Shown here: in pieces, positions 9,359 through 56,839 of the stretch | How positions within the stretch are numbered: position 1 is the stretch's first letter | Layout: each line of letters begins with the position of its first letter | Assembly: GCF_009765165.1 (NCBI RefSeq) | Contig: NZ_VLNU01000001.1 | Span: 1,851,001 to 1,915,000, forward strand | Direction: 5' to 3' | DNA length: 64,000 nucleotides | Source: Lysobacter panacisoli | GTDB lineage: Bacteria; Pseudomonadota; Gammaproteobacteria; Xanthomonadales; Xanthomonadaceae | The notes under the pieces: model-generated | The model's database searches: none | What the model saw: only the letters and a program-made list of their open reading frames with translations | What the model was told of the DNA's origin: nothing | Translations under genes and position numbers: made by a program

Positions 9359-9447
9359 GTCCCCTCTCCCGCTTGCGGGAGAGGGTTAGGGTGAGGGCTC
9401 GGCCTTCACCCTCACCCCAGCCCTCTCCCGCAAGCGGGAGAGGGGGA
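9359..9447. repeat. Inverted pair of CCCTCTCCC palindromic repeats between atpD and atpC
   Basis: Two hairpins built from CCCTCTCCCGC and GCGGGAGAGGG (9362-9385 and 9421-9444) flank an inner inverted repeat GGGTGAGGG / CCCTCACCC, so nearly the whole 89 nt is self-complementary. The same sequence family recurs at 46390-46510. It is a REP-like element inserted inside an operon. It fills most of the atpD-atpC gap and may affect message stability or partial termination before atpC. Confidence 0.85.
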
Positions 9448-41065: not shown

Positions 41066-42694
41066 GTGGATAGACGCTCCTTCCTGACGATGTCCGGCAT
41101 CGGCGTGGCCGGCCTCATGCTGCCGTTCGGCCGCTCGATCGCCGCCGACGCCCTGATCACCACCATCGACGTGGGCAAGAAAAAGGCCCTCGCCGATGCC
41201 GCGCTCGCCGCCGCCACTTCGGCCGGTGCGAGCTACTGCGACGTGCGCATCGGCCGCTACCTGCGCCAGTTCGTGATCACGCGCGAGGACAAGGTCCAGA
41301 ACGTGGTCAACACCGAATCCACCGGCGTCGGCGTGCGCGTGCTCGTCCACGGCGCGTGGGGCTTCAGCGCGACCAACGAGCTGAGCACGCAGGGCGTGGT
41401 CAAGGCCGCGCAGCAGGCCGCCGCCATCGCCCGCGCCAATGCCAAGACGCAGACCGCGCCGGTGCAGCTGGCCAAGGCGCCGGGCGTGGGCGAGGTCAGC
41501 TGGAAGACGCCGATCCGCAAGAATTCGATGGAAGTGCCGCTCAAGGACAAGGTCGACCTGCTGCTGGGCGTGAACGCCGCGGCGATCAACGCCGGCGCCA
41601 GCTTCGTCAACTCGATGCTGTTCCTGGTCAACGAGCAGAAGTACTTCGCCTCGACCGACGGCAGCTACATCGACCAGGACGTCCACCGCATCTGGGCGCC
41701 GATGACGGTCACCGCCATCGACAAGGCCAGCGGCAAGTTCCGCACCCGCGAAGGCCTGTCCTCGCCGATGGGCATGGGCTTCGAATACCTCGACGGCGCG
41801 AAGTCTGGCAAGGTCATCTCGCCCAACGGCGTGGTCAACTACGGCCTGTCGTACGACATGACCGAAGACGCGATCGCCTCGGCCAAGCAGGCCCGCGCCA
41901 AGCTCACCGCGCCGTCGGTGAAGCCGGGCAAGTACGACCTGGTGCTCGACCCGTCGCACACCTGGCTGACCATCCACGAGTCGATCGGCCATCCGCTCGA
42001 ACTCGACCGCGTGCTCGGCTACGAGGCCAACTACGCCGGCACCAGCTTCGCCACGCTCGACAAGCGCGAGCAGAAGTTCCAGTACGGCAGCGCCAACGTC
42101 AACGTCTTCGCCGACAAGATCCAGCCGGGCAGCCTCGGCGCGGTCGGTTACGACGACGAAGGCGTGAAGACCAAGAAGTGGGACCTCATCAGCGAAGGCA
42201 AACTGGTCGATTACCAGACCATCCGCGACCAGGCCCACATTCTCGGCAAGACCGAATCCGACGGCTGCTGCTATGCCGACTCGTGGTCGAGCGTGCAGTT
42301 CCAGCGCATGGCCAACGTCTCGCTGGCGCCGGGCAAGAACAAGCTCAGCGTCGCCGACATGATCAAGGACGTCGAGAACGGCATCTACATCATCGGCGAC
42401 GGCTCGTTCTCGATCGACCAGCAGCGCTACAACGCGCAGTTCGGCGGCCAGCTGTTCTACGAGATCAAGAACGGCCAGATCACCCGCCAGATCGAGGACG
42501 TGGCCTACCAGATCCGCACGCCGGAATTCTGGAACGCCTGCGTCGCGGTCTGCGACGACAGCGACTACCGCCTGGGCGGTTCGTTCTTCGACGGCAAGGG
42601 CCAGCCGGGCCAGGTGTCCGCGGTCTCGCACGGTTCGAGCACGGCGCGCTTCAACGGCATCAACGTCATCAACACCGCCCGCAGCCTCGGCTGA
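41066..42694 (+). CDS. TldD-like metalloprotease with twin-arginine signal (paralogue 1)
   Basis: TldD family members are zinc proteases that work as a heterodimer with TldE/PmbA. The 542-residue protein has the HExxxH site HESIGH (304-309) inside a complete TldD fold. It starts MDRRSFLTMSGIGVAGLMLP, an RR-x-F-L twin-arginine motif with a hydrophobic stretch and a probable cleavage region near SIAADA. Normal TldD is cytoplasmic, so an exported version is notable. The GTG at 41066 is the start that exposes the signal. It is a close paralogue of the protein encoded at 44054. Confidence 0.88.
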   Translation: MDRRSFLTMSGIGVAGLMLPFGRSIAADALITTIDVGKKKALADAALAAATSAGASYCDVRIGRYLRQFVITREDKVQNVVNTESTGVGVRVLVHGAWGFSATNELSTQGVVKAAQQAAAIARANAKTQTAPVQLAKAPGVGEVSWKTPIRKNSMEVPLKDKVDLLLGVNAAAINAGASFVNSMLFLVNEQKYFASTDGSYIDQDVHRIWAPMTVTAIDKASGKFRTREGLSSPMGMGFEYLDGAKSGKVISPNGVVNYGLSYDMTEDAIASAKQARAKLTAPSVKPGKYDLVLDPSHTWLTIHESIGHPLELDRVLGYEANYAGTSFATLDKREQKFQYGSANVNVFADKIQPGSLGAVGYDDEGVKTKKWDLISEGKLVDYQTIRDQAHILGKTESDGCCYADSWSSVQFQRMANVSLAPGKNKLSVADMIKDVENGIYIIGDGSFSIDQQRYNAQFGGQLFYEIKNGQITRQIEDVAYQIRTPEFWNACVAVCDDSDYRLGGSFFDGKGQPGQVSAVSHGSSTARFNGINVINTARSLG

Positions 42695-42715
42695 TCGCGC
42701 CTGGAGACCCAACGC

Positions 42716-44050
42716 ATGAGCATTTTCACCGAAGAACAGGCCAAGGCCATCCTGGACAAGGTCATCAAGCTGTCCAAGGCGGACCAGTGCAGCGCGACGC
42801 TGGCCGGTTCGGTCGACGGCAACATCCGTTTCGCCCTGAACAACATCTCCACCAGCGGCATCGTCGACAACACCGAGCTGGCCGTGGAAGTCGCGTTCGG
42901 CAACCGCGTCGGTACCGCCACCATCAACGAGTTCGACGATGCCGCGCTTGAACGCGTCGTGCGTCGTGCCGAGGACCTGGCGCGCCTGGCGCCGGAGAAC
43001 CCCGAGTTCATGCCGGCGATCGACAAGCAGGCCTACAAGGCCAGCCCGACTTTCAGCCAGTCCACCGCGGCGATCACGCCCGAGTACCGCGCCAAGGTCG
43101 CGGCCGACTCGATCGCGCCGTGCCGTGGCGACAAGCTGATTGCGGCCGGCTTCCTCGAGGACGGCCACAACTTCGTCGCCATCGCCAACAGCAACGGCAA
43201 CTTCGCCTACCAGCGCGGCAGCAACTTCAACTACACCTGCACGGTGCGCACCGAAGACGGCCGCGGTTCTGGCTGGGTCGGCCGCAACCTCAAGGACGCG
43301 TCCGACTTCAAGGCCGATGCCGACATCCGCACCGCCATGCGCAAGGCCACCGAATCGGCCGAAGCCAAGGCGCTGGAGCCGGGCAAGTACACGGTGATCC
43401 TGGAACCGGCCGCGGCCGCGGGCCTGATCTCGTTCATGATGAATTTCTTCGACGCGCGCCAGGCCGACGAAGGCCGCAGCTTCCTGTCGAAGAAGGGCGG
43501 CGGCAACAAGCTCGGCGAGCAGGTCTACGATCCGCGCGTGAACATCAGCGCCGACCCGTGGGACGAGCGCGCGCCGGTGCTGCCGTGGGACAACGAAGGC
43601 CTGCCGCGCGAGAAGATGGCGATCGTCGAGAACGGCAAGGTCGTCGCGCTCAACTATTCGCGCTTCTGGGCGAAGAAGCAGGGCAAGCGCGCGGTCGGCG
43701 AGCCGGGCAACCTGCTCGTCGCCGGCGGCGACAAGACCACCGCGCAGCTGGTGGCGAGCACGCAGAAGGGCATCCTGGTCACGCGCACCTGGTACATCCG
43801 CATGGTCGATCCGCAGACCGTGCTGCTGACCGGCCTCACGCGCGACGGCACGTTCTACATCGAGAACGGCCAGATCAAGCACCCGGTGAAGAACTTCCGC
43901 TTCAACGAATCGCCGGTGATCATGCTCAACAACATCGAGGAACTCGGCAAGCCGGTGCGCGTTGCCGGTGACGAATCCTCGTTCGTGATGATGATCCCGC
44001 CGATGAAGCTGCGCGACTTCACCTTCACCTCGCTTTCGGATGCGGTCTGA
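42716..44050 (+). CDS. TldE/PmbA-like protein without export signal
   Basis: The 444-residue protein belongs to the TldD/PmbA superfamily, with the family features GNLLVAGGD near residue 330 and GLTRDGTFYIENGQI toward the end. It has no HExxxH motif, as is normal for the TldE/PmbA partner, which shapes the active site of the heterodimer. It begins MSIFTEEQAKAILDK with no signal peptide, although both flanking TldD paralogues carry one. Start is 21 nt after the first TldD stop. Confidence 0.86.
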   Translation: MSIFTEEQAKAILDKVIKLSKADQCSATLAGSVDGNIRFALNNISTSGIVDNTELAVEVAFGNRVGTATINEFDDAALERVVRRAEDLARLAPENPEFMPAIDKQAYKASPTFSQSTAAITPEYRAKVAADSIAPCRGDKLIAAGFLEDGHNFVAIANSNGNFAYQRGSNFNYTCTVRTEDGRGSGWVGRNLKDASDFKADADIRTAMRKATESAEAKALEPGKYTVILEPAAAAGLISFMMNFFDARQADEGRSFLSKKGGGNKLGEQVYDPRVNISADPWDERAPVLPWDNEGLPREKMAIVENGKVVALNYSRFWAKKQGKRAVGEPGNLLVAGGDKTTAQLVASTQKGILVTRTWYIRMVDPQTVLLTGLTRDGTFYIENGQIKHPVKNFRFNESPVIMLNNIEELGKPVRVAGDESSFVMMIPPMKLRDFTFTSLSDAV

Positions 44051-44053
44051 TCA

Positions 44054-45679
44054 GTGCAACGTCGTGATTTCCTGAACTTCACCGGTCTCGGTCTCGCCGG
44101 CCTGCTGCTGCCTTACGGCCGCAGCATCGCCGCCGAGGCGCTGCTGGAACCGGTCGACACCGCGCGCCGTCGGCTCCTCGCCGACGCCGCGCTCACCACC
44201 GCCCGCGCCGGCGGCGCGCAGTACTGCGACGTGCGCGTGGGCCGGTACCTGCGCCAGTCGGTGATCACGCGCGAAACCCGCGTGGAGAACGTGGTCAACG
44301 CCGAGTCTTCCGGCGTCGGCATCCGCGTGCTCGCCGACGGTGCGTGGGGCTTCGCCGCCACGAACGTGCAGACGCCGGACGCGGTGGCGCAGGCCACGCG
44401 CACCGCGCTCGCCATCGCCCGTGCGAACGGACGCAACCAGACGCGCAAGGTCGAACTCGCCCCGGTCAAGGGCGTGGGCGAGGTGCGCTGGGCCACGCCG
44501 GTCGCGAAGAACGCGATGGCGGTGCCGCTCAAGGACAAGGTCGACCTCCTGCTCGGCGTCAACGCCGCGGCGATGAAGGCCGGCGCGGACTTCTTCAACT
44601 CGACGCTGTTCCTGGTCAACGAGCAGAAGTACTTCGCGTCCACCGACGGCAGCTACATCGACCAGGACGTGCACCGCATCTGGCTGCCGTTCACCGCGAC
44701 CGCGGTGGACAAGGCCAGCGGCAAATTCCGCACGCGCAACGGCCTGTCCGCGCCGATGGGCATGGGCTACGAATACCTCGACGCCGATCCCGCCGGCCGC
44801 TTCGCGCTGCCCGGCGGCGTGGTCGCGTACGGGCGCAGCTACGACGTGATGGAAGACGCGGTCGCCGCCGCGCGCGACGCGCGCGCCAAGCTCAAGGCGC
44901 CGTCGGTCAAGCCGGGCAAGTACGACCTGGTGATCGATCCGTCCAACCTGTTCCTGACGATCCACGAGAACGTCGGCCATCCGCTCGAACTCGACCGCGT
45001 GCTCGGCTACGAGGCCAACTACGCGGGCACCAGCTTCGCCACGCTCGACAAGCGCGACCAGGGCTATCGCTGGGGCAGTCCGATCGTCAACTTCGTCGCC
45101 GACAAGACGCGGCCGGGCAGCCTCGGTGCGGTCGGTTACGACGACGAAGGCGTTAAGACGAAGCAGTGGGACCTGGTGCGCGACGGCATCCTCGTCGACT
45201 ACCAGGCCACGCGCGACGAGGCGCATATCCTCGGCCACGCTGAATCGCACGGTTGCAGCTACGCCGATTCGTGGTCGAGCGTGCAGTTCCAGCGCATGGC
45301 CAACGTGTCGCTGATGCCGGGCAAGACGCCGCTCAGCGTCGCCGACATGGTCAAGGACGTGGAGAACGGCCTGTACATCCACGGCCGCGGCTCGTACTCG
45401 ATCGACCAGCAGCGCTACAACGCGCAGTTCGGCGGCCAGCTGTTCTACGAGATCAAGAACGGCAAGGTCACCGGCCTGGTCGAGGACGGCGCGTACCAGA
45501 TCCGCACGCCGGAATTCTGGAACGCCTGCGCCGCGATCTGCGACGAGCGGGATTTCCGCGTGCACGGTTCGTTCTTCGATGGCAAGGGCCAGCCCAGCCA
45601 GGTGTCCGCTGTTTCGCACGGTTCCAGCACCACGCGGTTCAACGGCATCAACGTCATCAATACCGCGCGTTCGATATGA
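44054..45679 (+). CDS. TldD-like metalloprotease with twin-arginine signal (paralogue 2)
   Basis: The 541-residue protein is collinear with paralogue 1 along its whole length, with HENVGH also at 304-309 and the same twin-arginine start (MQRRDFLNFTGLGLAGLLLP). The high similarity indicates a gene duplication around the TldE-like gene. The GTG start is 3 nt after the TldE-like stop. Its own stop overlaps the ATG of the next gene, so all four genes are translationally linked. Confidence 0.88.
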   Translation: MQRRDFLNFTGLGLAGLLLPYGRSIAAEALLEPVDTARRRLLADAALTTARAGGAQYCDVRVGRYLRQSVITRETRVENVVNAESSGVGIRVLADGAWGFAATNVQTPDAVAQATRTALAIARANGRNQTRKVELAPVKGVGEVRWATPVAKNAMAVPLKDKVDLLLGVNAAAMKAGADFFNSTLFLVNEQKYFASTDGSYIDQDVHRIWLPFTATAVDKASGKFRTRNGLSAPMGMGYEYLDADPAGRFALPGGVVAYGRSYDVMEDAVAAARDARAKLKAPSVKPGKYDLVIDPSNLFLTIHENVGHPLELDRVLGYEANYAGTSFATLDKRDQGYRWGSPIVNFVADKTRPGSLGAVGYDDEGVKTKQWDLVRDGILVDYQATRDEAHILGHAESHGCSYADSWSSVQFQRMANVSLMPGKTPLSVADMVKDVENGLYIHGRGSYSIDQQRYNAQFGGQLFYEIKNGKVTGLVEDGAYQIRTPEFWNACAAICDERDFRVHGSFFDGKGQPSQVSAVSHGSSTTRFNGINVINTARSI

Positions 45680-46386
45680 ACCGCGCGCAGTTCCTCCGCC
45701 TGATGCTCGCGGGCGCGGCGGGGGCGCTGCTGCCGCAGCCGTGGACGGGCGCGCGCGCCGCGAGCGTGGAGTACGACTTCTGGCTCACCCGCCTGAAGTA
45801 CGACTCCGGCGACTGGGACGTCGACCAGCGCATGCCGGCGAACCTGATCACGTCGCTGATCGACTACACGACCCTGCGCGTGGACCCGAAGGAACACGTG
45901 CTGGCGCTGGCCGATCCGAAGATGCTGACGGCGCCGTTCTGCTACCTCGCCGGGCACAAGCTCGTCGAGTTCAACCCGGCCGAGCGGCGCAACTTCGAAC
46001 GCTACGTGCGCAACGGCGGCTTCGTGTTCGTGGACGACTGCAACCACGACATCGACGGCCTGTTCGCCAAGTCGTTCGAAGCGCAGATGCGTTCGATCTT
46101 CGGTCCGAAGGCGCTGAAGAAGCTGCCCAACAACCACGCGCTGTACCGCAGCTTCTTCGAGTTCAAGGACGGCCCGCCCGCGACCGGTTTCGAACTCAAC
46201 GGCTGGGGCGACGACCTGGTGCACGATTACCTGCAGGGCATCGAGATCGACGGACGGCTGGGCGTGCTCTACAGCAACAAGGACTACGGTTGCGAGTGGG
46301 ACTACGACTGGCGCAACAAGCGTTTCCTGGCCGAGGACAACACGAGGTTCGCGGTCAATATCGTGATGTATGCATTGAGCAGCTGA
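45676..46386 (+). CDS. DUF4159 family exported protein
   Basis: The 236-residue protein has an N-terminal export signal (MNRAQFLRLMLAGAAGALL; only one Arg, so it may be Sec or a weak twin-arginine signal). It then matches the DUF4159 pattern: FWLTRLKYDSGDWDVDQRMP, the AGHKLVEFN region and NGGFVFVDDCNHD. The fold is glutamine-amidotransferase-like and no activity is known. It is coupled to the upstream TldD gene by ATGA. DUF4159 proteins are commonly linked to MoxR/DUF58/Bat gene sets, as here. Confidence 0.82.
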   Translation: MNRAQFLRLMLAGAAGALLPQPWTGARAASVEYDFWLTRLKYDSGDWDVDQRMPANLITSLIDYTTLRVDPKEHVLALADPKMLTAPFCYLAGHKLVEFNPAERRNFERYVRNGGFVFVDDCNHDIDGLFAKSFEAQMRSIFGPKALKKLPNNHALYRSFFEFKDGPPATGFELNGWGDDLVHDYLQGIEIDGRLGVLYSNKDYGCEWDYDWRNKRFLAEDNTRFAVNIVMYALSS

Positions 46387-46389
46387 ATT

Positions 46390-46510
46390 CCCTCTCCCTG
46401 GCGCTGCGCGCCTGTCCCTCTCCCGCAAGGGGAGAGGGCAAAGCACGGCGCCTCCTCCCTCTCCCCTTGCGGGAGAGGGACAGGCCACCGAAGGTGGCCA
46501 GGGAGAGGGG
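46390..46510. repeat. 121-bp nested palindrome of CCCTCTCCC repeats
   Basis: Four C/T-rich or G/A-rich blocks form two nested inverted pairs. An outer pair (CCCTCTCCCTGGC with GGCCAGGGAGAGGG) encloses an inner pair (GCCTGTCCCTCTCCCGC with its complement). The whole stretch can fold back on itself. It occupies most of the gap between the DUF4159 gene and moxR and is the second copy of the family seen at 9359. Confidence 0.85.
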
Positions 46511-46541
46511 AAGGGCCGCACCAAACCTCTGGAAATCCGGA

Positions 46542-47537
46542 ATGAACAGCACTCTCACCGAAGCAGACATCCAAACCCAGCTCGCGAAGCTCGGCACGTT
46601 GCGCAGCGCCATCGCACAGGCCATCGTCGGCCAGGAAGCCGTTGTCGAGCAGTTGCTGATCGGCCTGCTCGCGGGCGGGCACTGCCTGCTCGAAGGCGTG
46701 CCCGGCCTGGGCAAGACGCTGCTGGTGCGTTCGCTCGGGCAGGCGCTGGAACTGCAGTTCCGCCGCGTGCAGTTCACGCCGGACCTGATGCCCAGCGACA
46801 TTCTCGGCACCGAGCTGCTGGAAGAAGACCACGGCACCGGTCATCGCCACTTCCGTTTCCAGCCGGGCCCGATCTTCACCAACCTGCTGCTCGCGGACGA
46901 ACTCAACCGCACGCCGCCGAAGACGCAGGCCGCGCTGCTCGAAGCGATGCAGGAACGCACCGTCAGCTACGCCGGCGTGACCCACACGTTGCCCGCGCCG
47001 TTCTTCGTGCTTGCCACGCAGAACCCGCTGGAACAGGCCGGCACGTATCCGTTGCCTGAAGCGCAGCTCGACCGCTTCCTGCTGCACATCCGCGTCGATT
47101 ACCCGAGCGAGAACGAAGAGCGCGACATCCTTGCGCAGACCACGGGCACGCGTCATTCCGACGTGCCCAGCGTGATGCACGGCGAGGAAGTGCTGGCCCT
47201 GCAGGCGCGCGTGCGCGAAGTGCATTTCGGCGACGACCTGCTGTCGTGGGTCACGCGCCTGGTGCGCGCCAGCCGCCCGGGCGAGAACGCGCCGGCGGAA
47301 GTGCGCCAGTGGGTGAAATGGGGTGCCGGTCCACGCGCGGGCCAGTCGCTGGTCCTGGCCGCGAAGGCGCGCGCGCTGCTGCACGGCCGCCTCGCCGCCA
47401 CGCGCGAGGACATCGCCGCGCTCGCCGCACCGGTCATGCGCCATCGCCTGCTGCTGTCGTTCGCTGCCGAAGCCGAACAGAAGAGCGCCGACGACGTGAT
47501 CGCCGCGCTGCTGCGCAGCGTGCCGTTCGCCGCCTGA
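46542..47537 (+). CDS. MoxR-family AAA+ ATPase
   Basis: The 331-residue ATPase has Walker A GVPGLGKT (52-59), Walker B with LLLADELNRTPPKTQ, sensor 1 ATQNPLEQAGTYPLPEAQLDRF, and the C-terminal lid. MoxR proteins act as chaperones for maturation of metal or protein complexes and are paired with DUF58 and vWA proteins, as here. It is the first gene of a tight downstream block, 155 nt after the DUF4159 gene. Confidence 0.92.
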   Translation: MNSTLTEADIQTQLAKLGTLRSAIAQAIVGQEAVVEQLLIGLLAGGHCLLEGVPGLGKTLLVRSLGQALELQFRRVQFTPDLMPSDILGTELLEEDHGTGHRHFRFQPGPIFTNLLLADELNRTPPKTQAALLEAMQERTVSYAGVTHTLPAPFFVLATQNPLEQAGTYPLPEAQLDRFLLHIRVDYPSENEERDILAQTTGTRHSDVPSVMHGEEVLALQARVREVHFGDDLLSWVTRLVRASRPGENAPAEVRQWVKWGAGPRAGQSLVLAAKARALLHGRLAATREDIAALAAPVMRHRLLLSFAAEAEQKSADDVIAALLRSVPFAA

Positions 47538-47547
47538 CGGAGCGTCC

Positions 47548-48462
47548 GTGGCAGAGCCGGGTTCCCGCATCGCCGACTTCATCCCGCCGCAGGTGCGCGC
47601 GCGGTTGAAGGACCTGCGCCTGACCTCGCGCCGCGCGGTCGGGCTGCAGGGTCTGGGCCTGCACCACAGCCGCAGTCGTGGCGCGGGCCTCGAATTCGCG
47701 CAGTACCGCGCCTACGAACCCGGCGACGAACTGCGCCAGATCGACTGGAAGCTCTATGCGCGTTCCGACCGCTTCTTCGTGCGCGAGGCCGAACGCGAAA
47801 GTCCGCTGGCGGTGTGGCTGCTGATCGATGCGAGCGCGTCGATGGCACAGGAAGACGCAGCGCGTCCGGGCTGGTCGCGTCTCGCCGCGGCGAAGGGCCT
47901 GGCCGCCTGCATCGCCGAACTCGCGCTGCGCCAGGGCGACCGCTTCGGGCTGGTGGCGTTGCGCGACGACGGCGTGCGCCTGCTCGCACCCGGCGCTGGC
48001 GTGCGCCAGCGCGATCGTTTCATGCTCGAACTGCACGGCCTCGCCGCGCGCGGCCGCTGGCCCGCGCCGGAGCAGCTGCGCCCGCTGTGGGAACGCATCG
48101 GCCAGGGTGACCTGGTGGTGCTGCTGAGCGATGGCTTCGATGACGGCTCGGTCGAGGTGATGACGCGACTGGCCGCCGCGCGCCGCGAAGTGCTGGCGAT
48201 CCGCCTGCTCACCGCCGAGGAACGCGATTTCCCGTTCCGGGGTGGCCATCGTTTCCACGACCCGGAAACCGGCGAGGAACTGCTCGGCGACGGCACGGCG
48301 ATGCGTGGCGAGTTCCTCGAGCGCTTCATGCAGGCGCGGCGCGAACTCGATGCGCGGCTCGACACCGCCGGCATCCGCCACGCCGAGTACGTCCTCGACC
48401 AACCGCTGGACCTGCCGTTGCGACGGCTGTTCGGCTCGCGCGACGCCGCGGAGTACGCGTGA
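47548..48462 (+). CDS. DUF58 domain protein (vWA-like)
   Basis: The 304-residue cytoplasmic protein has the DUF58 signature YEPGDELRQIDWKLYARS followed by a vWA-like core with a DASAS metal motif (WLLIDASASM). DUF58 proteins are the usual partner of MoxR ATPases. GTG start is 10 nt after moxR; the stop overlaps the next start by 4 bp. Confidence 0.9.
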   Translation: MAEPGSRIADFIPPQVRARLKDLRLTSRRAVGLQGLGLHHSRSRGAGLEFAQYRAYEPGDELRQIDWKLYARSDRFFVREAERESPLAVWLLIDASASMAQEDAARPGWSRLAAAKGLAACIAELALRQGDRFGLVALRDDGVRLLAPGAGVRQRDRFMLELHGLAARGRWPAPEQLRPLWERIGQGDLVVLLSDGFDDGSVEVMTRLAAARREVLAIRLLTAEERDFPFRGGHRFHDPETGEELLGDGTAMRGEFLERFMQARRELDARLDTAGIRHAEYVLDQPLDLPLRRLFGSRDAAEYA

Positions 48463-49622
48463 GCCTGGTCTTCCTCCTGCCGGCGGGATTGGCCGCCCTC
48501 GCCGCGTTGCTGCTGCCGCTGCTGATCCACCTGGCGCGACGCAGCGAGCAGCGACCGACGGAATTCGCGGCCCTGCGCTGGCTGCGGCAGAAGCCGCGTC
48601 CGCGTCATCGGATCCGCTTCGACGAGTGGCCGCTCCTGCTGGTGCGCCTGCTGCTGCTCGCGCTCACGGCGCTGCTGCTCGCGCGTCCGGCGCTGCTCGG
48701 CGACACGCGCGCGCAGGCACATGTCGCGATTGCGCCCGGCGTCGACCTCGCACAGGCACGCGCGGCGTTCGGAACGACGCCCGCGCAATGGCATTGGCTG
48801 GCGGCCGATTTTCCCGCCATCGAAACAAGCGCGCCCGAATCGCAGGCGAGCATCACCAGTCTCGTGCGCGAACTAGATGCACGGCTGCCTATCGACGCAC
48901 CGCTGACGGTATTCGTTCCCGAACGGATCGACGGCGCCGACGGCCAACGCATGGCGCTCGGACGCAAGGTCGACTGGCGCGTATTGCCTGCGACGAGGGC
49001 CGCGTCTGACGCGCCCGCGACGAGCACGCGCGCGCCGTCGCCGAGCGTGCGGTACGCGCCGGGTCGCGAACCGGCGCTGCGTTACCTGCGCGCGGCGCAC
49101 GCTGCGTGGCAGGGCGACGCGCGGGCGACGCTCGACATCGCACCGTCGTCGCAGCCACTGTCGCCCACGACGCGATCGCTGGTATGGCTCGTGCCGGGCC
49201 CGTTGCCGTCGGTAATCGCAGAGTGGATCCGCAATGGCGGTACCGCGCTCGTGGATGCGCAGGCGCAGGTCGAGAGCGCTTCGACGGCGACGCCGCTGTG
49301 GCGCGACGACACCGGCGCCGTGCTGGTCGATGGCGCGACGTTCGGACGTGGCCGACTAATGCGTCTGCACCGCGAACTGTCACCGCAGGCGATGCCGCAA
49401 CTGCTCGATGCCTCGTTCCCGCGCCATCTGCGCGCGCTGTTCGAAGCGGTTCCGCCTCCGCCGTCGCGTGCGCACGCACGTGAACACGCACCGGTGACCG
49501 GTGGCCCGACCTTCACCGCACCGCCACGCGAACTCGCGTCGTGGCTGGTGCTTGCGATCGCGCTGGTGTTCCTGCTCGAACGCTGGATGGCGACCGGTCG
49601 CCGCCGGACGGTGGCGCCGTGA
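48459..49622 (+). CDS. BatA-type N-terminal membrane protein
   Basis: The 387-residue protein has two N-terminal membrane helices (about 1-23 and 53-77) around a positively charged loop (LARRSEQRPTEFAALRWLRQ), the pattern of the aerotolerance regulator BatA N-terminal domain. A periplasmic domain follows, then a C-terminal helix (about 350-370). No MIDAS-type vWA motif is visible in this copy, so it lacks the vWA part of classical BatA. It overlaps neighbours by 4 bp at both ends. Confidence 0.78.
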   Translation: MSLVFLLPAGLAALAALLLPLLIHLARRSEQRPTEFAALRWLRQKPRPRHRIRFDEWPLLLVRLLLLALTALLLARPALLGDTRAQAHVAIAPGVDLAQARAAFGTTPAQWHWLAADFPAIETSAPESQASITSLVRELDARLPIDAPLTVFVPERIDGADGQRMALGRKVDWRVLPATRAASDAPATSTRAPSPSVRYAPGREPALRYLRAAHAAWQGDARATLDIAPSSQPLSPTTRSLVWLVPGPLPSVIAEWIRNGGTALVDAQAQVESASTATPLWRDDTGAVLVDGATFGRGRLMRLHRELSPQAMPQLLDASFPRHLRALFEAVPPPPSRAHAREHAPVTGGPTFTAPPRELASWLVLAIALVFLLERWMATGRRRTVAP

Positions 49623-54186: not shown

Positions 54187-56058
54187 TCAGTTGACGGGCG
54201 CGTAGCGCAGCGTCAGGTACCACTCGCGGCCGGGCTGGTTGTAGAACGACACGGTCTCGTATTCGCGATCGAACACGTTGGCGACGCGGGCCTGCAGCGT
54301 CAGCGCGTCGCTCAGCGCGTACTCGGCGCGCAGGTCGAGCGTGCCGTAGCCGGCGAGACGGCGCGTGTTGGCGACGTCGTCGTAGCGCGAGCCTTCACCG
54401 GCCGCGGTGACGCCGACGCGGAACGCGCCGAAGGCACGGTCGATCTCGATGCGTGCGCTGTTCTTCGCGCGGCGGGCGAGGTCGTTGCCTTCGAAGAAGC
54501 CGGAGCGGTTCTCGGTGTCGAGCCAGCTGATCGCGCCGTTGACGGTCCAGTCGGCGAGCGTGGCGTTGGCGGTGAGTTCGGCGCCGCGCATGCGCGCACT
54601 GTCGACGTTGTTCGGGCGGTTCTGGCTGGCGTCGAAGGCGATCAGGTCGTCGACGTCGGTGCTGAAGGCGTCGAGGTTCACGCCCACGCCGTCGCCCTGC
54701 CAGCCCACGCCGAGTTCCCACGTCTCCGACTCTTCCGGATCGAGGTCCGGATTGCTGAAGAACGGGAAGTACAGCTCGTTGAAGGTCGGCGCCTTGAAGG
54801 CGGTGCCGTAGCCCGCGCGGACGCGCCAGTTCTCGGCGAAACTCATGCCCCACGCCGCGCTGCCGGTGGTGTGCCCGCCGAACTGTTCGTTGTCGTCGCG
54901 ACGCACGCTCGCCTCGAGCGACTGCGCACCGAAGCGGCCCTGGTACTGCACGAACGCGGCCTTGTTGTCGCGCTCGGTCTCGTCGTAGGTGGTGGTCGCA
55001 TCGACGCGGTCGCGCAGCCAGTCCAGGCCCAGCGTCAGCAGCTGGCCGCTGGCGATGCCGAAGTCGCCCTGCAGCGTCGCGCTGTCGCGATCGGTGCTGA
55101 AGAAATCGACGAAGTCCTCGCCGAGGAAGTTGTCGGAGGCATCGACGTTGCGGCCGGCGGTGAGGTGCAGGTCGACGCGCTCGGACGGGCGCCAGCGCAG
55201 CTTGCCGCCGATCACCTGCTGGATCGTCTCGGAACGATCGGTGAAATCGCCGTCGAATTCGTTGTCGCCCTCGTTGCGCAGCGCATGGCCTTCCAGGCTC
55301 CACTGCTCGCCGAACTGCACGCCGCCGCGCAGCGACAGCGCATCCTTGTCGTAGCCGTCGCGATCTGGCTGCGAGTCGGTGGCGATGAAGCAGCCCGCGC
55401 CGTCGAAGGTCAACGGATCGAAGAAACCGTTGCAGGCGTTGATGCCGGTGGTGCGCGTGTGCTGGTAGTCGGCGCCGAACCAGGCGCGCTCGCTGGCGCC
55501 GCCGAAGCCCATGCCGTATCCGAGCGAGTCGTTGCTGCCGGCATCGAACCGCACGCGCGGCACGAATGCGCCGCGGTCGCGACGGGTGAACACCTGGATC
55601 ACGCCACCGATGGCGTCGCTGCCGTACAGGCTCGCGCGCGGACCGCGCACGATTTCCACGCGCTCGATCATTTCGATCGGCAGGTCCTGGAACGACACCA
55701 GCCCCGAGGTCGATGAACCGATGCGGATGCCGTCGACCAGCACCAGCACGTGGTCGGATTCCGCGCCGCGCAGGAACAGCGTGGTCAGCTTGCCCTGGCC
55801 GCCCTGGTTGGACAGCGAGATGCCGGCGCGGCCCTGCAGCAGTTCGGGCAGCGAGCGCGCCTGGCTGTGGCGGATCTGTTCGGCGTCGATCACTTCCACC
55901 GGTGTGAGCGCATCGTTGACGCTGATCGCGGTGCGGTTGGCGGTGACGACGACTTCGTCGAGATCGGTGGCGGCCTGCGCGCGGGCGAGGGCGGGCAACG
56001 CGAGGGCGCAGGCGAGCGCGAGTGCGGCGTGGATCGGGGTGGCATTACGCGGGGACAT
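54187..56058 (-). CDS. btuB: TonB-dependent vitamin B12 receptor, BtuB-like
   Basis: This is an outer-membrane receptor for cobalamin or a related corrinoid. The 623-residue protein has a signal peptide (ALALACALALPALARAQA), a DLDEVVVTANR stretch just after it, a plug domain with the RSLPELLQGRAGISL and GSDAIGGVIQVFT motifs, and a long beta-barrel with alternating aromatic residues. A cobalamin riboswitch precedes the gene, which supports the substrate. The ATG at 56058 is chosen as the start of the signal peptide; the longer in-frame reading runs through the riboswitch. It ends YAPVN instead of the aromatic residue usual for barrels. Confidence 0.9.
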   Translation of the reverse strand: MSPRNATPIHAALALACALALPALARAQAATDLDEVVVTANRTAISVNDALTPVEVIDAEQIRHSQARSLPELLQGRAGISLSNQGGQGKLTTLFLRGAESDHVLVLVDGIRIGSSTSGLVSFQDLPIEMIERVEIVRGPRASLYGSDAIGGVIQVFTRRDRGAFVPRVRFDAGSNDSLGYGMGFGGASERAWFGADYQHTRTTGINACNGFFDPLTFDGAGCFIATDSQPDRDGYDKDALSLRGGVQFGEQWSLEGHALRNEGDNEFDGDFTDRSETIQQVIGGKLRWRPSERVDLHLTAGRNVDASDNFLGEDFVDFFSTDRDSATLQGDFGIASGQLLTLGLDWLRDRVDATTTYDETERDNKAAFVQYQGRFGAQSLEASVRRDDNEQFGGHTTGSAAWGMSFAENWRVRAGYGTAFKAPTFNELYFPFFSNPDLDPEESETWELGVGWQGDGVGVNLDAFSTDVDDLIAFDASQNRPNNVDSARMRGAELTANATLADWTVNGAISWLDTENRSGFFEGNDLARRAKNSARIEIDRAFGAFRVGVTAAGEGSRYDDVANTRRLAGYGTLDLRAEYALSDALTLQARVANVFDREYETVSFYNQPGREWYLTLRYAPVN

Positions 56059-56189
56059 CGTTTTCTCCAGCGCGCGGACGGGCCGCGTCGGACAGCGGGA
56101 AGTCGCGTGGAGAAAGCGGGCTGCGTGGCGGGCGCGCATCGCGCCGGCATCGCCGCCGCGACGCCCTCCGCATCGCAACCAGTGGCGGG

Positions 56190-56395
56190 TCGAATGACCC
56201 TGCGTCCAGGCCGGTCTCCGGACTCGCGAGTGGAGGCATGCCTCCGGGCGCGGCGCCTTCCCGTGCGATCGCACAGTGGCGGTTGCCGTGCCTTGCTCGC
56301 TTACCGTTGCGGGGGCAGTGCCGGAATGGCCGCGGGCGGCGTCACCGGCTTCCCGTTTCAACCCGTTGGCGGACGCCGTCGGGTCACCTGAAAGC
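56190..56395 (-). promoter_or_regulatory. Cobalamin (AdoCbl) riboswitch upstream of btuB
   Basis: Read on the minus strand, the leader contains the B12 box GCCACTGTG followed after a short variable stretch by CACGGGAAGG (about 56282-56258), the hallmark of the cobalamin riboswitch. The upstream GAAGCCGGTGA and CCCCGCAACGGTAA blocks and the closing GAGTCCGGAGACCGGCC are also present, in the right order. Bounds are approximate. Bound cobalamin should switch btuB off, probably by hiding the ribosome site or by terminating transcription. The rest of the stretch to 56458 shows nothing else. Confidence 0.92.
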
Positions 56396-56458
56396 GCGCG
56401 CAGTCTACGCGATACCGGCCTCGTGGGCCAAAGCGCCGGGGGCTTGGGAGCCGCAGGG

Positions 56459-56839
56459 TTACTCGCGTTCGCCGGGTTCGTCGAACAGCGACGGCATGGC
56501 CATGCTGCTCTCTTCGCCCATCTGCGTGGTCGTGACCGGCGCGGCGGCCGGCCGGTAGCGTGGCGGCGGCAGCAGGGCGATGGCGGCTTCGGCGGCGACG
56601 ACCAGCTCGCTGCGGCGTTCGTCGGAGATCTCCTGCCAATGGCAGTCCTGCAGCGCACCCTCGATGGCGTACAGCAGGTTGAGGGTGGGCTTGAAGCCCG
56701 CGCGCTTGACGCGCATGAAAGCATCCACCGTACCCGCCGCGGCCAGGTCCTCGCGGGTGCGAAGGCCGACCTGGCGCAGCCAGGCGGCGGACTTGGGTCC
56801 GATGTTGCGCAGCTTGTCCGTACTCGTACCCGTCGTCAT
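56459..56839 (-). CDS. TfoX C-terminal domain protein
   Basis: The 126-residue protein matches the TfoX/Sxy C-terminal domain: LRNIGPKSAAWLRQVGLRTREDL, then GTVDAFMRVKRAGFKPTLNLLYAIEGAL and a helical end. It lacks the N-terminal TfoX domain, so it is a stand-alone C-terminal copy, common in this group. A Met/Pro/Glu tail follows. The start ATG overlaps the stop of the upstream free-Met-sulfoxide-reductase gene by 4 bp. Confidence 0.82.
   Translation of the reverse strand: MTTGTSTDKLRNIGPKSAAWLRQVGLRTREDLAAAGTVDAFMRVKRAGFKPTLNLLYAIEGALQDCHWQEISDERRSELVVAAEAAIALLPPPRYRPAAAPVTTTQMGEESSMAMPSLFDEPGERE

Follow-up and report, generated by a model that had tools for sequence, protein, structure and literature searches.

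Can a TldD/TldE peptidase, a system that matures microcin B17 and degrades antitoxin fragments in the cytoplasm, work outside the inner membrane? This question was raised by a TldD-TldE-TldD gene trio of Lysobacter panacisoli in a 64,000-nucleotide stretch of contig NZ_VLNU01000001.1 (positions 1,851,001 to 1,915,000; hereafter the window), in which, according to the original prediction, both TldD paralogues (TldD1 and TldD2) carry signals for twin-arginine translocation (Tat) and the TldE-like protein between them carries none. Our comparison established Tat motifs at the TldD starts and none on TldE, the fold, the catalytic motif, an Asp replacing a Cys at the metal site, and the conservation of the operon. 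These observations point to an exported TldD/TldE metallopeptidase, in which TldE would hitchhike through the Tat system and which would work with a membrane MoxR-VWA module; judged from the sequences, we put the probability of this reading at roughly two in three.

The relatives compared were the best 80 of 574 candidate loci from a genome scan with a TldE alignment, and Tat signals were judged by motif pattern, start codon, hydrophobicity and a loose A-x-A pattern. In the window, each TldD starts with GTG; a twin-arginine motif comes directly after it, and then a hydrophobic stretch and an A-x-A region (VDRRSFLTMSGIGVAGLMLPFGRSIA, then ADA, in TldD1; VQRRDFLNFTGLGLAGLLLPYGRSIA, then AEA, in TldD2; the cleavage point is our own reading). 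The 80 loci contained 123 TldD frames, two of which were cut by contig ends (L069 and L071). RRx(F/L) was found two residues after the start codon in all 121 complete N-termini, as RRxFL in 112, RRxFM in five, RRxFI in two and RRxLL in two, and the codon at that distance was TTG in 47, GTG in 41 and ATG in 33. Since such regular placement at a start codon is not expected by chance, the TldD starts are fixed, and a chance motif or wrongly assigned starts were ruled out. Thus, the predicted motifs and GTG starts of TldD1 and TldD2 were borne out, and orthologues keep the RR motif. RR was also present in all 10 further TldDs of seven extra stretches (L127-L129 and L178-L181), of which at least L181 seems to be L112 repeated. 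The best 15-residue hydrophobicity window within the first 45 residues of the TldDs had a median of 1.71 and a minimum of 1.2 (n = 123). As a side observation, both L112 and L117 have one more Tat-bearing TldD close to the operon; it is encoded on the other strand, and no TldE adjoins it.

The TldE of the window starts with MSIFTEEQAKAILDKV, and an in-frame stop lies seven codons upstream of its ATG. None of the 84 TldEs of the 80 loci had a Tat motif after Met, in agreement with the predicted lack of a signal in the window; RR-like letters occurred in two (L099 and L114), both times before Met. The in-frame room upstream was at most 15 codons in 48 of the 84 relatives and more than 15 in the other 36. 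A hidden TldE signal was therefore ruled out in the window, by the upstream stop, and in the 48 relatives without upstream room, the argument not extending to the other 36. The median of the best hydrophobicity window was 0.78 (n = 84), as compared to 1.71 for TldD, and HExxxH was absent from all 84 TldEs.

If TldE has no signal of its own, it could leave the cytoplasm on a partner, as signal-less subunits pass the Tat system on tagged partners (PMC10924467, seen in part, as were all papers cited here). In E. coli, TldD and TldE form a hollow heterodimer that breaks down unfolded peptides starting at their N-termini; only TldD has an active site, and both subunits are required for activity (PMC5810440). 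The 84 TldEs without a Tat motif would also be in line with export of TldD alone: it would form a homodimer outside, and TldE would remain cytoplasmic, possibly as a chaperone or inhibitor that retains TldD until export. A Sulfolobus TldD homodimer was reported to be active (cited in PMC5810440), E. coli TldD homodimers were seen by ultracentrifugation (PMC5810440), and the extra TldDs of L112 and L117 have no adjoining TldE (L181 appearing to be the L112 contig). However, E. coli TldD shows activity only in the presence of TldE, and its instability prevented purification of the homodimer from cells (PMC5810440); TldE adjoins TldD in 80 of 80 loci and was co-duplicated in four. On balance, we consider export of TldD alone unlikely.

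The metal of E. coli TldD is held by the two His of HExxxH and Cys454, and Asp may replace the Cys ligand in some species according to the same authors (PMC5810440). HExxxH was retained in all 125 TldDs (the two of the window and 123 of the loci), and HESIGH of TldD1 and HENVGH of TldD2 do lie at residues 304-309, where they had been placed. All 125 also read DGKGQ where canonical forms have CGKxGQ. A gapless alignment with TldDs of two signal-less sister pairs put the sister Cys at exactly the Asp position; in the MAFFT column, Lys, not Asp, fell under the canonical Cys, with a gap two columns off, and the Asp assignment rests on the DGKGQ/CGKxGQ motif and the gapless sister alignment. This Asp would serve as a metal ligand of the Tat-type TldD. 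That TldD2 might be a defunct duplicate was rejected, because it retains both HExxxH and Asp. The Cys was kept in 20 of 20 canonical and 11 of 11 sister TldDs, comparators that were hand-picked from the listed matches. The comparison reached other phyla through one plasmid record only and did not take in the Asp-type TldD that PMC5810440 names for Gemmatimonas.

A tree of 72 TldDs (44 Tat/Asp, 20 canonical and eight of the 11 sisters) united the Tat/Asp TldDs in one clade (support 100/97), with the Cys-type sisters adjoining it. Because they form one clade, the export motif and the Asp appear to have arisen once, together or in close succession. A Cys ligand would be at risk in the oxidising periplasm, which is a plausible reason, drawn from this single event, for the change to Asp. 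Two other cysteines, at TldD1 residues 58 and 492, mark the Tat-bearing clade (FWxxC in 124 and SYC in 108 of the 125) and are absent from the two sisters aligned. They could possibly form a disulfide after export.

None of the 20 canonical TldDs showed a Tat-like start by motif and hydrophobicity check. RR letters occurred in sisters L131 and L185, in both cases followed by charged or Pro-containing residues, and were not counted as signals; L185 is doubtful, as a mildly hydrophobic stretch follows its RR letters. The Cys-type sister pairs being signal-less, the N-termini of the window might likewise go unused as Tat signals, and the genes might encode cytosolic paralogues that act in the maturation of a metal enzyme or of a peptide product, for instance pyrroloquinoline quinone (PQQ). 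MoxR systems are generally regarded as cytosolic chaperones, which would suit a cytosolic role. So would the Gluconobacter tldD and tldE mutants, which point to PQQ supply (PMC8602642). Against this, all 121 complete TldD N-termini have RRx(F/L) exactly at the start codon with a hydrophobic stretch behind it, and sister and canonical TldDs have no RRx(F/L) start. We regard a cytosolic location as very improbable.

The surroundings of the trio were conserved along with it. In every one of the 80 loci, TldE is preceded by a TldD on its own strand, and DUF4159 follows the TldD/TldE genes in all 74 loci whose contig continues, the other six contigs ending within 215 bases. Of the 80 loci, 74 have MoxR, 69 have DUF58 and 62 have a BatA-like gene; most of the 18 that gave no BatA-like match are short contigs. 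The original prediction had taken the trio as the unit, which holds in that TldE always stands beside TldD and fails in its extent, the operon being TldD/TldE-DUF4159-MoxR-DUF58-BatA-like. The two-TldD arrangement, present in the window, is not general, since 39 of the 80 loci have a single TldD and a single TldE on that strand (D-E); as seen, with some contigs cut, the other orders were D-D-E in 31, D-E-D in six and D-E-D-E in four. The Tat-bearing form was found in Xanthomonadales, Sphingomonadales, Caulobacterales and Massilia relatives, with loci in Lysobacter, Stenotrophomonas, Xanthomonas, Pseudoxanthomonas, Luteimonas, Arenimonas, Sphingomonas, Sphingobium, Erythrobacter, Brevundimonas, Massilia, Duganella and other genera; locus L063 is the operon of Lysobacter enzymogenes.

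Among 99 genomes of the family to which the window belongs, 39 had a Tat-type TldD and 40 had DUF4159, all 39 being common to both; the remaining genome, with DUF4159 and no Tat-type TldD, is a 72% complete assembly. Since some genera mix genomes with and without the two genes, TldD and DUF4159 seem to be gained or lost together. Across 398 phylum-wide genomes, TldD relatives of at least 63% identity occurred in 13 (our own count of match rows), followed by a gap down to 43%. DUF4159 N-termini often read (N/T)-R-x-x-FLRLM, a one-Arg Tat-like motif; the strict RR pattern was met in nine of 74, and in at least one of these (L054) the match begins before Met. Two other origins were rejected: TldE relatives in phage and plasmid collections were all below 60% identity, which speaks against a mobile element, and PADLOC gave only weak AAA matches to MoxR among eight proteins scanned (TldD2 left out), lending a defence island no support.

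The downstream genes bear on a further possibility, that an uncleaved signal keeps the TldDs anchored in the inner membrane, where they would serve as the outer-face arm of the MoxR-VWA module. The BatA-like protein and the two large proteins after it have hydrophobic anchors, and the operon looks like one membrane complex. However, by a loose pattern, the hydrophobic part is succeeded by an A-x-A-like stretch in 123 of 123 TldDs, counted with the two of the window, and the signals of those two stay below the membrane-helix threshold. Such anchoring seems to us distinctly unlikely.

Pfam placed PmbA/TldD domains 1, 2 and 3 in each of TldD1, TldE and TldD2 above the cut-offs. The NCBIfam equivalog cut-offs were not reached (TldD1 66 and TldD2 75 against 513 bits; TldE 52 against 438), and the better matches to the canonical TldD/PmbA families were other genes of the genome, canonical TldD and PmbA sitting ca. 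0.74 Mb away, separate from the trio. TatC is encoded in the same genome. The structure model of TldD1 (mean predicted local distance difference test, pLDDT, 78.8) had E. coli TldD as its best Foldseek match (E about 1e-34), with a Z score of 29.4 over 449 residues. The model of DUF4159 (mean pLDDT 80.8) was nearest among solved structures to 4i66, an uncharacterised Haliangium protein, and matched glutamyl-hydrolase or ThuA-like folds weakly.

Several observations weigh against the exported heterodimer. Five of the 84 TldEs reach the TldD hydrophobicity minimum of 1.2, without RR, so that the two groups overlap slightly, and the E. coli TldD homodimers seen by ultracentrifugation (PMC5810440) show a TldD pairing with itself. 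The association between Tat motif and Asp rests on a single event on the tree, and the tree program warned of long branches meeting at the sister and exported groups. No BatA-like gene was detected in five Massilia/Duganella loci whose flanks are long (L116, L119 and L122-L124), and DUF4159 has no signal in Massilia/Duganella loci. TldE-type chains tie with TldD by Z (28.8 for 1vl4 and below), and the Z score does not separate TldD from TldE; the fold therefore places TldD1 in the TldD/TldE family, and its identity as a TldD comes from the motif. Finally, the pLDDT of the TldD1 model falls below 50 at residues 308-327 and 506-518, the catalytic loops, so that the Asp509 geometry in the model is of low confidence.

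From all this we infer export, hitchhiking, metal ligation by Asp, an activity on a substrate and a role of the MoxR module, in the following order. TldD would fold in the cytoplasm, bind its metal via His304, His309 and Asp509 with Glu305 as the catalytic base, and pair with the signal-less, catalytically empty TldE; the hollow heterodimer would then exit via Tat on the signal of TldD. Where two TldD paralogues share one TldE, they may yield two enzymes that differ in specificity and have the same inert half. Outside the inner membrane, the enzyme might trim or degrade unfolded peptide N-termini, by analogy with what the E. coli enzyme does inside. MoxR, DUF58, the BatA-like protein and the large membrane proteins may act as a membrane-bound AAA/VWA chaperone, whose task would be to unfold, mature or deliver either the substrate or the enzyme; DUF4159 is a putative accessory. 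The fullest form of this proposal, a TldD/TldE that switched compartment, being metal-loaded in the cytoplasm, exported whole by Tat with its hitchhiking inactive half, changed from an oxidisable Cys to Asp upon its move into the periplasm, and fed by a membrane MoxR-VWA machine acting together with DUF4159, is tentative, and we hold it somewhat less probable than its negation. If true, it would mean energy-assisted peptide processing outside the inner membrane. Export as such would extend the TldD/TldE family to a new compartment and provide a protease case of Tat export with a signal-less half. It would also give the conserved DUF4159-MoxR-DUF58-BatA-like genes a partner and hence a testable function, and the Cys-to-Asp change makes a simple, testable prediction on metal sites in oxidising compartments.

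Table 1. Genes of the TldD/TldE operon in the window (positions counted from the first nucleotide of the window).
Feature	Position	Strand	Characteristics
TldD1	41066..42694	+	GTG start; Tat motif RRSFL; HESIGH; Asp509 at the Cys-ligand position
TldE-like partner	42716..44050	+	ATG start; no Tat motif; no HExxxH
TldD2 paralogue	44054..45679	+	GTG start; Tat motif RRDFL; HENVGH; Asp at the Cys-ligand position
DUF4159 protein	45676..46386	+	N-terminus MNRAQFLRLMLAGAAGALL; one-arginine Tat-like motif
MoxR-type AAA ATPase	46542..47537	+	ATG at 46542
DUF58 protein	47548..48462	+	Weak VWA match
BatA-like membrane protein	48459..49622	+	Two N-terminal anchors; one C-terminal hydrophobic segment
Large protein, 724 aa	49619..51790	+	N-terminal hydrophobic segments; conserved in the cluster
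Protein of 622 aa	51787..53655	+	Two N-terminal hydrophobic segments; relatives in 55 of 80 loci

TldD2 is 73% identical to TldD1, and the start of the DUF4159 gene overlaps the TldD2 stop (Table 1). Pfam gave no family at cut-off for the 724-aa protein; a provisional label, 'D4175', had no such Pfam match and was not used. The stretch between the DUF4159 gene and moxR (46390-46520) contains a perfect inverted repeat of 29 bases together with smaller repeats, which have the look of REP-type palindromes, and similar repeat-like readings occur just upstream of DUF4159 in several relatives. Elsewhere in the window, a TonB-dependent receptor resembling cobalamin (BtuB-type) receptors, judged by its translation only, is encoded on the minus strand (54187-56724), and a GC-rich palindrome of the CCCTCTCCCGC/GCGGGAGAGGG type occurs in two copies of opposite orientation (9362-9444).

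The claim that an exported TldD/TldE is undescribed was upheld by the literature covered: no such paper was found, and the operon was mentioned once. In Stenotrophomonas maltophilia, NIPOLPBK_01784 to 01792 was called a not yet characterised operon (PMC7688217), with nine locus numbers and eight named products, including two TldDs and a MoxR-like ATPase, and some of its genes were lower in biofilms of all seven isolates. It is very likely the operon described here (compare L050 and L052-L054), and the covered part of that paper mentions neither export nor the metal site. Literature on TldD/TldE with Tat, periplasm, MoxR or secretome described no TldD export, most subscription papers and database annotations lying outside the search, and the same search found no papers on DUF4159. 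TldD and Tat occur in unrelated lists in PMC11508158; a Bradyrhizobium study lists TldD as cytoplasmic; and the covered parts of the Gluconobacter, Bradyrhizobium, Rhodobacter, Photorhabdus and Fervidobacterium papers do not mention TldD export.

The Tat/Asp operon is a variant within the TldD/TldE family, and its extent and the metal-ligand change are new beyond the earlier observation. With E. coli TldD/TldE (PmbA) it shares the fold, the PmbA/TldD domains, HExxxH on TldD only and a paired TldE, at ca. 21-22% identity over the structure; unlike that system, it has Tat motifs, Asp for Cys at the third ligand and another operon. The signal-less sister pairs (ca. 40% identity in genome G187 and Nonomuraea; a family at ca. 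30-36%) likewise have TldD next to TldE and share the GKxxPxQV region; in contrast to the Lysobacter trio, they carry no Tat signal and their metal position is occupied by Cys. Relatives of DUF4159 or MoxR were not detected in the 9-16 kb stretches read. MoxR-DUF58-BatA is a general type of AAA/VWA gene module; the gene order is the same here, and the coupling to a Tat-bearing TldD/TldE and DUF4159 sets this one apart from such modules generally. As in the known Tat hitchhikers, the periplasmic Ni-Fe hydrogenases and formate dehydrogenases (PMC10924467), the signal lies on one subunit only, and the order in which they form the complex before export is the one proposed for TldD/TldE. Those hitchhikers are redox enzymes (PMC10924467), whereas TldD/TldE, for which co-export is as yet a proposal, would be a peptidase.
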